A model generated the notes under the pieces. It had not been told where the DNA came from and did no database searches. It saw only the letters and a list, made by a program, of their open reading frames with translations. This document shows positions 6,705-32,770 of a DNA stretch of 34,053 nt, piece by piece. Location: the IMG/VR virus record IMGVR_UViG_3300042564_000223, positions 1 through 34,053 of that record; one strand, 5' to 3'. Source of the DNA: a virus. Position 1 is the first letter of the stretch; each line of letters begins with the position of its first letter. A program made the position numbers and the translations under genes.

Positions 6705-6982
6705 TCGGTGTACTCCTGTGTGGGCGGGGTCTCATCACCACCCTTGCTGCGATTGTTTCCTGCGGCCATTACGCCACCCAGAGCACCTACAATAAATGAG
6801 GCAATGGGGGTCAGTACTTCAAAGAATTTTCTGTCCATCTCTGAGCTTTCACCCAAAGGCTGAGTTACAAAAACCAAGCTATAAAGCACTGCGAAGATGA
6901 TGCCACCGAGGATCATAACCAGTGCCACACCAATAAAATAGCGTAGCTTGGCTTCCATAAAATCAGGGTTGTTCTTGCTCAT
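6701..6982 (-). CDS. Candidate holin (93 aa, two membrane segments)
   Basis: Starting at ATG 6982, with GGAG upstream, the protein has two clear hydrophobic segments, roughly residues 13-37 (FIGVALVMILGGIIFAV) and 55-70 (LTPIASFIVGALGGVMA), separated by a charged loop, and a polar tail with Lys/Arg. Size and topology fit a class II-type holin, and the gene is three genes ahead of the endolysin. It overlaps both neighbours by ATGA. Holin assignment rests on topology and context only; it could instead be an antiholin or an accessory membrane protein. Confidence 0.5.
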   Translation of the reverse strand: MSKNNPDFMEAKLRYFIGVALVMILGGIIFAVLYSLVFVTQPLGESSEMDRKFFEVLTPIASFIVGALGGVMAAGNNRSKGGDETPPTQEYTE

Positions 6983-30192: not shown

Positions 30193-30434
30193 TATTCCCA
30201 CTCTCTCTTACGATCTGGCTCAAAAACGTCACTCTTCTTCAGGTGACCCTCTAGGTACATGGCTCTCTCAATCCTGTCTAGGGAGTATCTTTCCCCAGTC
30301 CTCTGGAAGATGGCCTCACGAACGTAGAACACATCAGATCGGGGTATGTGAACCCTCTTAAGTCTACCTTCATCCTTGTCTGCAAGGGCATTGTAGAAGT
30401 TGGTGAGCACATCGTCGTCTGCGAAATATTTCAT
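30192..30434 (-). CDS. First gene of the leftward block (80 aa)
   Basis: The sequence KYFADDDVLTNFYNALADKD, RLKRVHIPRSDVFYVREAIF and LDRIERAMYLEGHLKKSDVF resembles an uncharacterised marine phage family. It is the first gene after the 1.6-kb control region. A promoter ends six bases before ATG 30434 and no Shine-Dalgarno sequence is positioned normally, so a leaderless mRNA is possible. The charge pattern would allow DNA binding; no fold is recognised. Confidence 0.6.
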   Translation of the reverse strand: MKYFADDDVLTNFYNALADKDEGRLKRVHIPRSDVFYVREAIFQRTGERYSLDRIERAMYLEGHLKKSDVFEPDRKREWE

Positions 30435-30440
30435 TTGCTA

Positions 30441-30468
30441 GTTATATCCTTGAGCTTCTTAGAGTCAA
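30441..30468 (-). promoter_or_regulatory. Promoter directly before the first leftward gene
   Basis: On the minus strand TTGACT (30468-30463), a 16-base spacer, and TATAAC (30446-30441), then six bases to ATG 30434. Spacing and lack of a leader match the promoter at 26582-26610. Confidence 0.55.
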
Positions 30469-30569
30469 GCCTTATCTTGTACTTTCAGGGAGAAACTTAC
30501 AGTTTGAGAGGAACGACAGAAAAAATTACCTTGGGGTACTTGAAATTCTGTTTTTCCTTCCTACGTATA

Positions 30570-30754
30570 TACATTAAGAGATACATAATGTTCCTACCTT
30601 AAGCTTCATAAGGTTATACCTTATTTTTATATAATTACTTAAAGGTAATAAGTACTTAAGTATACCTTAAGGTACTCTTGAAGCTATCTCATCAGGCTTC
30701 ATTATGAGATACACTAAGCTTCTTGAAGCTATACATTATGTATCTCTTAATGTA
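30570..30754. repeat. AT-rich control segment bounded by a 22-bp inverted repeat
   Basis: Bases 30570-30591 are the exact reverse complement of 30733-30754. Between them is a very AT-rich 141-base stretch with smaller repeats (CTTAAGG, AAGCTT, GAAGCTAT, GAGATAC and near palindromes such as AAGTACTTAAGTA). This could be an operator pair for DNA looping, a replication origin's melting region, or an RNA stem in the leftward leader. The right arm overlaps the -10 of the promoter at 30754-30781. Confidence 0.7.
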
Positions 30755-30781
30755 ATATACCGCCTTCCTGTCGTTTGTCAA
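30754..30781 (-). promoter_or_regulatory. Leftward sigma70-like promoter at the inverted repeat
   Basis: On the minus strand TTGACA (30781-30776) is followed after 16 bases by TATATT (30759-30754). Its start point would fall inside the right arm of the inverted repeat at 30733-30754, so a repressor binding that arm would block it. Confidence 0.6.
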
Positions 30782-30876
30782 GAGGTCTTCTCATCTTTTT
30801 CTAGAAATATTTATACCTCCCCAAGCTCTCTACCTCCAGACTCACCCCACTCGGGAGTAACACCACGAACATAGCT

Positions 30877-30962
30877 AAAAGAGCCTCATAGAGAGCCGCC
30901 AGATGGGCATCTCCACTTTTTCTAGGTCACCATAGCCAAGAACCAAGATGGCTCTCTGAGGC
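30877..30962 (-). terminator. Terminator- or attenuator-like stem in the leftward leader
   Basis: GCCTC-AT-AGAGAGCC (30883-30897) can pair with GGCTCTCT-GAGGC (30950-30962): thirteen pairs with a two-base bulge. On the minus strand the stem is followed by TCTTTT (30882-30877). With the promoter candidate at 30993 it could yield a ~110-base terminated RNA. Confidence 0.45.
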
Positions 30963-30992
30963 CCCTCCTACGCTCTCTACAACTGTGGTACC

Positions 30993-31022
30993 ATTATACC
31001 CCTATTTGTCTAGACAACTTAA
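30993..31022 (-). promoter_or_regulatory. Upstream leftward promoter candidate with perfect -10
   Basis: The minus strand shows GGGGTATAATGG, a perfect TATAAT at 30998-30993. The -35 is weak (TTAAGT, 31022-31017, spacer 18) and overlaps a 12-bp palindrome, which might be an activator or repressor site. Confidence 0.4.
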
Positions 31023-31054
31023 GTGTTAACCACTGAGGCTTTTTCTGGTTAACA
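31006..31054. promoter_or_regulatory. Operator-like palindromes
   Basis: TTGTCTAGACAA (31006-31017) is a perfect 12-bp palindrome. Just beyond it TGTTAACCA (31024-31032) and TGGTTAACA (31046-31054) form a 9-bp inverted repeat with a 13-base spacer. Both lie next to the -35 of the promoter at 30993-31022 and look like sites for dimeric regulators. Confidence 0.45.
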
Positions 31055-31059
31055 GAACT

Positions 31060-31440
31060 ACAAAAATCCCCCCGCTGTCATTGTGGGTATACGCTATCAG
31101 GCATCCCCCCTGTGGCCCATGCCCCTCCCCCTATGCACCGAAAGCTGGTAGGTCGTGCCGTTTTCCCCCGAAGCCCTAGGCCAGTATATGCTAACACATT
31201 GAAAAGATTATGTTTCTGACAGAATGTAGGTTTATTGAATTGAATGTTAAGGCTTTTAACATCTTGGAATTTGACCGGATGGTAAAAAGCGCAAGAGGGA
31301 TGCATCACCTAGGGTCACATTCGGAATCCAGAATACATCCCCCATCCCCCTTATCACATGCAGGATTCGGAATCTGTCCCCCCACGTATACGCGCGTGTT
31401 CCTATACCCAGATCAGGTCATCATATTCAAGAAATAGAAT
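31060..31440. other. Gene-free C-run-rich segment with repeated ATTCGGAATC
   Basis: No convincing gene is present. Runs of five or six C recur on the plus strand, often as ATCCCCC. ATTCGGAATC occurs at 31319-31328 and 31365-31374, each near CACAT and C-runs. A 7-bp stem ATGTTAA...TTAACAT (31244-31262) also occurs. Iteron-like origin sites or single-strand structure (G-rich minus strand) are possible; nothing is decisive. Confidence 0.4.
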
Positions 31441-31513
31441 TCGACATGACCCTGCATTTTTCCGCTTGCAATCTTTTTCGGGAAAGCGTTGGATGTATTC
31501 ACCGAAGCGGAAA

Positions 31514-32028
31514 CGCCTAGGACGGCGGGAAGCGAAGACCTAGGGAAGCGGCGAAGAGCTAGCACCTAGTGATACCTTCCCCCGATAAAGGCGAGCCTAG
31601 GCGCAAGCAAGACCTAGGGAAGGCGAAGAAAGAATGTGTTGACAAGGTTTCGAGTAAATGCCAGGGTAGGGGCAAGGCATCCCTGAGAGGGGCAATGCAC
31701 TCCAGATACAGCATAACCCTTCGGGGGCCTAGGTCTGGGTGGGATGCCGACTATAAGCGGGAAGTAAGGCCACCATCTTTGGCCCGTGCTCTTTATCATC
31801 TTCAGCCTAGGCTGATATCGTTAAGGCAATGAAACCTTGCTACCTAGTTGAAGCGCGAAAGCGTGGATGCGATAATGGACGCAACGCAAGGTGGAGCCGC
31901 TAGAAAGCAAACTGGTGAGCCTTGCCAGTATAATAAAAGTTAGGTATTCAAGCCTAGGTAGAATGGGAAGATAAGTATTGACAGAGACTTGCATCTGTGG
32001 TTCGCTGTAGGTGCAATGCTAAGTCAAT
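31514..32028 (+). ncRNA. Candidate large structured noncoding RNA (~515 nt)
   Basis: The gene-free segment contains many long complementary pairs: 31514-31521 with 31596-31603 (8 bp); 31610-31618 (or its copy at 31536-31544) with 31728-31736 (9 bp); 31676-31683 with 31741-31748 (8 bp); GGCCA/TGGCC at 31768-31784; TCAGC-CTAG-GCTGA at 31802-31815; 31840-31852 with 31947-31961 (13 bp with a 2-base bulge); GCAAGG/CCTTGC at 31886-31925; ATTGAC/GTCAAT at 31977-32028 enclosing a 7-bp stem. CCC-TTCG-GGG and GCGC-GAAA-GCGT supply classic UUCG and GNRA loops when read as plus-strand RNA. It ends just before the first rightward gene. No clear plus-strand promoter was found, although TATAAT occurs at 31930. 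It may be related to large ornate phage RNAs such as GOLLD or ROOL, but I cannot match a consensus. Confidence 0.5.
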
Positions 32029-32047
32029 CAGCAATATGAGGTCTGAC

Positions 32048-32770
32048 ATGTCGTGGAAGGGTAATCTTCTGTCGTGTGGTTCCAATGCCAAGACTGTGAA
32101 GGGTGATGGGTCAGAGTATCTAACGGCCATCATGTATCTTAAGCCTTACAAAACCGCAGGGATCAATCTGTGTGCTATGGCTGAGCAAGCTAAGTGCATT
32201 GACCCTTGCCTAGTAGGTGCGGGACGTGGCCAGATGGATAGTGTCCAAGCGGGACGCCTTCGCAAAACTGAGTGGTTCATTCGGGATCGTGCTGGCTTCA
32301 TGGCTCAGATGGTGACTGATGTGCAAGCCTTTGTGAAGTATTGTGCCAAGCGTGATATCCAGCCATGTGTCAGACCTAACGGCACGAGTGACATTCGGTG
32401 GGAATTGATCCCTGTGATGGTTGATGGGGTGGCCTATGCCAATATCATGCAAGCCTTCCCTTCGGTGATCTGGTATGACTATACAAAGATTGCCAATCGG
32501 CGCAATGTCCCTGTGAATTATCACCTCACGTGGTCTTATTCTGGGGCGAATGAAGCCTATGCCAAGCAACATGCGATTGCCAAGGTGAATGGCCTGAATA
32601 TCGCCGTGGTGTTTCGCCGCAAGGTTGATATTCCATCTGAGTATCTAGGGCTTCCCACGATTGATGGCGACCGTGACGATATGCGTTTCCTTGACCCTAA
32701 GGGTGTGGTCGTTGCACTGTATGCCAAGGGTAAGGCGAAACAAGATCAATCCGGCTTTGTCGTAAACTGA
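32048..32770 (+). CDS. Gp88/DUF7227-like protein (240 aa)
   Basis: The sequence GNLLSCGSNAKTVKGDGSEY, then INLCAMAEQAKCIDPCLVGA and GRGQMDSVQAGRLRKTEWFI, and RPNGTSDIRWE (109-119) matches a widespread phage family I know as DUF7227 or gene-88-like. Three Cys (42, 50, 54) spaced Cx7Cx3C suggest a metal or iron-sulfur site. I chose ATG 32048 with GAGG seven bases upstream; ATG 32036 is in frame but lacks a site. It is the first gene of the rightward cluster. The biochemical role is unknown. Confidence 0.7.
   Translation: MSWKGNLLSCGSNAKTVKGDGSEYLTAIMYLKPYKTAGINLCAMAEQAKCIDPCLVGAGRGQMDSVQAGRLRKTEWFIRDRAGFMAQMVTDVQAFVKYCAKRDIQPCVRPNGTSDIRWELIPVMVDGVAYANIMQAFPSVIWYDYTKIANRRNVPVNYHLTWSYSGANEAYAKQHAIAKVNGLNIAVVFRRKVDIPSEYLGLPTIDGDRDDMRFLDPKGVVVALYAKGKAKQDQSGFVVN

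Follow-up and report, generated by a model that had tools for sequence, protein, structure and literature searches.

Positions 31440-32047 of the window (the whole stretch of DNA analysed here, an IMG/VR virus contig of 34 kb, or 34,053 nucleotides) appear to form the untranslated 5′ leader with which the rightward early operon begins in a marine phage of the HMO-2011-like kind, and this leader seems to carry a nut-like, boxA-dependent signal for transcription antitermination, composed of a boxA-like sequence and a small covarying hairpin that we call P2. We give this joint reading a probability of about 0.6. The window has a degenerate copy of a signal that many phages carry, in which a boxA match and the covarying hairpin after it would probably let host RNA polymerase pass terminators. 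As judged from alignments with relatives, the stretch is assembled from leader modules that can be exchanged. The covarying hairpin that accompanies boxA is newly seen. More tentatively, with somewhat less than an even chance, boxA-P2 may represent a class of antitermination RNA not yet described in phages: aquatic phages unrelated to one another would have copied the boxA of host rRNA and joined to it a shared covarying UA/GAUNAU hairpin, which would contact RNA polymerase, a Nus factor or an unknown protein of the phage.

Little is known about transcription control in the abundant HMO-2011-like marine phages, and a comparative paper on this group makes no mention of promoters, intergenic regions or terminators (PMC9038755). 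In the open-access literature searched, few reports cover Nus-type antitermination beyond rRNA and the lambdoid phages, and none describes a boxA-P2-like element for HMO-2011-like phages; such a description may exist elsewhere. A boxA identical to that of the host, joined to a new covarying motif, leads to the testable hypothesis that these phages exploit the antitermination machinery of rRNA operons to express their early genes. Furthermore, P2 and a second hairpin element, H, provide two new RNA models with which genomes can be annotated and further phages of this strategy sought.

A modular leader between divergent gene sets

Late genes (terminase, portal and major head protein) occupy the minus strand up to position 30434, and early genes run rightward, beginning with a member of the GP88 family, relatives of which are present in 25 IMG/VR loci. 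Between them lies a 1.6-kb divergent region (30435-32047) with no obvious gene. A first-pass annotation of 31514-32028 had placed this stretch beside the early genes, flanked by modules that diverge, which is borne out, and had called it gene-free, which holds for obvious genes: ORFs of 87 and 61 amino acids are listed mechanically, but close relatives have unrelated sequence in part of the stretch. The window terminase shares 65% identity with that of Puniceispirillum phage HMO-2011 and 97% with that of contig L035, and we therefore classified the window as an HMO-2011-like phage; hosts of the phage contigs were assigned from relatives only. A T7-like RNA polymerase gene was found in none of 15 phage records by a search that detected the positive control (an Autographiviridae phage), which is consistent with dependence on host RNA polymerase.

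Table 1. Features of the leader and the first early gene in the window
Feature	Position	Strand	Remarks
Upstream promoter-like block (TTGCAA-17 nt-TTGGAT)	31466..31494	+	at the end of conserved noncoding block 31392-31489
Second promoter-like site (TTGACA-17 nt-CAGGGT)	31639..31667	+	conserved in close relatives
P1 hairpin (GGCCA-CCATCTT-TGGCC)	31768..31784	+	boxB-like position, 2 nt before boxA
boxA-like sequence TGCTCTTTATCATC (core TGCTCTTT)	31787..31800	+	second half diverged from GACATTG
P2, divergent copy (CC-UA-hairpin with GAAA loop-GAUAAU-GG)	31840-31881	+	window left out of the R2 covariance model
H element, imperfect 59-nt hairpin	31974..32032	+	directly precedes the early genes
First early gene, GP88 family (PF17338)	32048..32770	+	Pfam E 5.7e-42; ATG at 32048

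When the divergent region was aligned with close relatives, gathered via a neighbouring 80-aa late gene, four patches proved to be conserved (31392-31489, 31638-31676, 31753-31794 and 31972-32028), and the sequence between them diverges. The first patch is 94% identical in L035 and is present in L027, L029 and L034 as well; L003 has a positionally equivalent CCCTGCATTTT..TTGACC..TAGTTAATT block, with similar blocks in L008 and L014. The second promoter-like site is kept as TTGACA/TTGACG-N17-CAGGGT/CAAGGT/CAGAGT in L027, L029, L034 and L035 and is doubled in tandem in L034/L035. This site was not called by a consensus promoter scan. From their sequences and conservation, we infer that both sites act as promoters.

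Downstream, unrelated sequence replaces the segment between P1-boxA and H in close relatives: 31795-31971 of the window is not homologous to L027/L029, and a pattern scan for closer relatives of 31800-31970 returned only chance matches in two unrelated phages. That the promoter, P1-boxA (31753-31794) and H are kept while the sequence between them diverges counts in favour of the leader reading. A separate segment, 31669-31753, is identical in the window and L027 with divergent flanks and is missing from L029, and thus looks like a recently exchanged module.

A boxA-P2 unit in early phage leaders

Early leaders of related contigs and of other phages carry a canonical boxA, [C/T]GCTCTTTGACAT(T/C)GTTA. 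To place this sequence among bacteria, GTDB genomes were scanned with the 17-mer GCTCTTTGACATTGTTA, which matched 81 stretches, many of them (chiefly in Sphingomonadales) with the 16S 27F motif about 200-240 nt further downstream; this placement identifies those matches as rRNA-operon boxA. The canonical phage boxA is identical to the alphaproteobacterial rRNA-operon boxA. For gammaproteobacteria, the boxA consensus is GYTCTTTAANA (PMC5725501). The window copy has lost the GACATTG half, and matches TGCTCTTTRACA with one mismatch (11/12 positions), the sole site with at most one mismatch to that sequence in the 34-kb window. Its core is conserved in close relatives. The homologous site in L034/L035 is the canonical TGCTCTTTGACATT, a sequence that also occurs in 16S operon leaders, and L027/L029 retain only TGCTCTTT of boxA and are without P2.

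The P1 hairpin is conserved in the window, L027, L029, L034 and L035. In many other phages hairpins of differing sequence precede boxA, with individual p values mostly of 0.005-0.2, and several have no hairpin; support for a P1-like hairpin ahead of boxA across phages is moderate. The exact phage P1-boxA string occurs in none of the GTDB genomes.

In phages, boxA is followed by P2, a motif of the form NNC-UA-stem-loop-stem-GAUNAU-GNN in which two covarying stems surround an invariant UA/GAUNAU internal loop. A pattern scan collected 36 distinct boxA-P2 variants, and the alignment for covariation was made on P2 alone. The covariation score is 0.408 versus 0.103 for shuffled alignments (0/500 as high), with slid controls at 0.10 or below, and 46 cells are changed on both sides versus 19.6 when shuffled. 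Specifically, pair 2 of P2a is paired in 30/30 with three pair types (C-G, A-U and G-C), and pair 2 of P2b is paired in 30/30 with two. The P2b stem ranges from 2 to 11 bp in length, and conservation does not extend to the P2 loop. Across 1.6 Mb of viral loci, a set partly assembled through boxA patterns, TTTGACA lies upstream of almost every CTA-hairpin-GATNATG match. We rejected TTTGACA as a -35 element, its spacing to GATNAT being variable and far from 17 nt.

The unit was also seen independently in contigs gathered through proteins (L010, L013, L015, L034, L035, L051, L052, L056, L058, L062, L067, L069, L073, L077, L079 and L098), and five near-genome-size contigs that were searched each have a single copy, at the start of the early operon. 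A second lineage (L247 and L259) has boxA-P2 at the start of its early genes, where these and the terminase diverge as they do in the window; a search with the window terminase does not detect the terminase of this lineage, which carries phrog_1297 ATPase and phrog_1314 genes. The strict boxA-P2 pattern was sought as host chromosomal or prophage copies in 385 alphaproteobacterial genomes and occurred in none, no Rfam family matched the unit in eleven loci searched, and blast of the L264 and L052 leaders in isolate phages gave nothing useful. Among 30 distinct HMO-2011-like family members that have the region, nine carry the strict unit, and HMO-2011, CRP-1 and CRP-13 lack it, on which grounds we rejected a group-wide presence. 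As a separate observation, L247, which has boxA-P2, contains a Type II hammerhead ribozyme match between early genes (6875-6946; 41 bits, E 8e-5).

The model R2 has its top match on the window leader at the P2 position (15.2 bits, E 0.002 in 601 nt), and this is its only match at E≤10 across the whole window (E 0.11). Because other family members score 22-33 bits, the window copy is degenerate: the closing pairs and the UA/GAUAAU loop fit, the inner stem, of 2 bp, an internal loop and 4 bp, is weak, and the spacer from boxA is longer, at about 40 nt to CTA. We regard the window P2 as a divergent and possibly decayed member of the family. A weaker P2-like match (CCTAGG..CCGATAAAGG) lies upstream of the inner promoter at 31513-31594, with 11.8 bits and E 0.016 in 601 nt.

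In the mechanism we propose, host RNA polymerase would initiate at predicted start sites of one or two leader promoters, and the nascent RNA would then offer a nut-like unit of small hairpin, boxA and P2. Host NusB-S10 would bind boxA as in host rRNA leaders, P2 would strengthen or specify the Nus complex, and the unit would make the polymerase resistant to termination, such that transcription extends across the long early region. The H hairpin, which precedes the ribosome-binding site of the operon's first gene and is found again ahead of other early genes, would presumably be processed. In rRNA antitermination, boxA is reported to be necessary and sufficient for factor recruitment (PMC10250234). 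Against antitermination we counted the missing GACATTG, the reduced boxA and absent P2 of L027/L029, the weak P2 and its longer spacer, the 9/30 strict occurrences, the lack of the unit in HMO-2011, CRP-1 and CRP-13, and the moderate support for P1. No phage antiterminator protein was identified, N-like proteins not having been sought systematically. Since the boxA 3′ half and P2 are both degenerate in the window, activity there may be reduced or altered, and together with the 9/30 figure the degenerate copy leaves function in the window phage uncertain.

This arrangement resembles several known systems. As in the E. coli rrnTAC leader (boxB-boxA-boxC), promoters and a hairpin precede a boxA near the transcript start, and the canonical phage boxA is the 17-mer of alphaproteobacterial 16S leaders; in contrast, the phages have the covarying P2 hairpin where rrn has boxC, the window boxA is diverged, the downstream gene is early gene GP88 rather than rRNA, and no RNA family is found in the window. 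Lambda N, of an arginine-rich type of protein that binds the boxB hairpin, acts via boxA and boxB, and a lambda-type nut site shares with the phage leaders a boxA and an adjacent hairpin in an early transcript. However, the sequence and loop of the P2 hairpin are not conserved, its conserved part is the UA/GAUNAU internal loop, and the host group is another. The put RNA of HK022 comprises two stem-loops in about 70 nt and acts as RNA alone with no dedicated trans-acting protein (PMC9378689). It too is a structured RNA in an early phage leader, where ours is likewise proposed to render polymerase termination-resistant, but boxA, which is central in the HMO-2011-like leader, is unmentioned for put (PMC9378689).

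Alternative readings of the leader

The first-pass annotation had proposed that 31514-32028 forms one large structured noncoding RNA of the GOLLD/ROOL kind, an abundant phage transcript. The elements it named are present: a stem of CTACCTAGTTGAA (31840-31852) with TTCAAGCCTAGGTAG (31947-31961), candidate pseudoknot pairings AGACCTAGG/CCTAGGTCT and GGCATCCC/GGGATGCC, and the loop sequences TTCG (31720 and 32001) and GAAA (31857). The unusual stem density was also recovered, with nine perfect Watson-Crick stems of at least 8 bp versus 1.2 in dinucleotide shuffles (0/40 as high), in a 1.6-kb divergent region poor in genes. However, much of this excess is explained by the self-complementary word CCTAGG, which is repeated seven times in 515 nt (13.6/kb versus 0.07/kb in the remaining window) and is not conserved, being absent from the L034/L035 loci and present in 2-4 copies in L029 and L027. 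As a whole, the stretch folds modestly better than shuffled sequence (z -1.53, 1/20; z -2.47, 1/100), with z -1.21 for the reverse strand, and the best-folding sub-region is the 3′ hairpin at 31972-32032 (z -2.72, 0/100 shuffles). The stretch shares with GOLLD, ROOL and OLE a setting in noncoding DNA of a phage or bacterium, but Rfam covariance models, including GOLLD, ROOL, HEARO and OLE, gave no match in the window at gathering threshold, a search at E≤10 across 30800-32100 gave two chance matches only, and no large fold is conserved. Homologues reveal covariation in the small modules P2 and H. The long-range stems are not kept in close relatives, nor is the 31795-31971 segment, L029 lacks 31669-31753, and the 13-bp stem and the conserved P2 pairing are alternatives to each other, since they share 31843-31852. 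With the CCTAGG origin of many of the stems, the modest energy and the lack of an Rfam match, a single large ornate RNA is unsupported as such and we rejected it as very improbable; what survives of the structured-RNA claim is real covarying structure in small cis-acting leader modules, P1-boxA-P2 and the hairpin H. As a further observation, the CTAG-rich CCTAGG cluster spans 31173-31958 of the window, and the word is also clustered in L010.

Three other readings concern the boxA-P2 leader itself. The unit in the window might be a decayed relic in which recombination replaced the downstream half, leaving P1-boxA inactive and only the promoter and H at work. This accounts for the altered boxA 3′ half, for a P2 of 15 bits versus 22-33 elsewhere and for the lack of P2 in L027/L029, but the window, L027 and L029 retain P1 and TGCTCTTT while their neighbours changed, and the P2-like match is unique in 34 kb and lies at the expected place; we consider decay somewhat unlikely. 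Repression, whereby Nus factors bound to the leader would block translation or expression of the early genes, has a precedent in the E. coli suhB 5′ UTR, where boxA represses suhB (PMC5725501), and boxA-P2 does sit in a 5′ UTR, at a distance from a start codon that is in some cases about 40 nt. In the HMO-2011-like family, however, P2 is roughly 100-400 nt from the first gene, and a placement at the head of a long early operon suits antitermination better, which makes repression a decidedly unlikely role. Finally, P1 followed by the T-rich boxA core was flagged by a terminator scan (31768-31784) and could be read as a weak intrinsic terminator, but terminator-like sites are not above shuffles (2 vs 2.5), and what follows the hairpin in relatives is the boxA of rRNA operons, GCTCTTTGACATTGTTA, with no U run, so that we find this hardly credible.

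The H hairpin and other conserved elements

The H family consists of imperfect hairpins before early genes, with at most two strong copies per locus, and each is a two-part covarying stem with a conserved internal loop. Across 18 pairs, 99% of cells are paired and the covariation score is 0.518 versus 0.193 shuffled (0/500), with both-sided changes in 10 pairs; the window copy scores 65.3 bits with model R1, in which the window row is included. T7 has RNase III processing hairpins between its early genes, and H resembles these as an imperfect covarying hairpin with an internal loop before early genes, but its sequence is unrelated and its processing is putative. H is most likely an RNA processing hairpin, of RNase III type by this analogy, or one that protects a 5′ end.

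H could instead be a promoter, made of TTGACA and a -10-like loop sequence, since most copies carry TTGACAGA and several have a TAGGCT-like sequence 17-18 nt downstream. However, both stems covary, including in L009, which has two copies with different arms, the first of them with a loop insertion of roughly 31 nt, and copies in six loci (L045, L067, L268, L056, L013 and L015) keep the hairpin without TTGACA. Because TTGACA is dispensable and the loop tolerates the L009 insertion, an RNA hairpin is better supported, and we consider the promoter reading unlikely.

Two further elements lie closer to the late genes. A strongly conserved noncoding block (..CTGTCATTG..GTATACGC..CCCCCC..GGCCCATGCCC..) occupies 31034-31136 of the window; 33 aligned sequences, including CRP-13 (L163), yield no consensus RNA structure on either strand, and the block is possibly a DNA site, e.g. 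an origin, a packaging site or a late promoter. At 30570-30754, a perfect 22-nt inverted repeat with 141 nt between its arms, accompanied by related AAGCTTC-type repeats, is kept in close relatives and is a possible terminator or origin-like structure.
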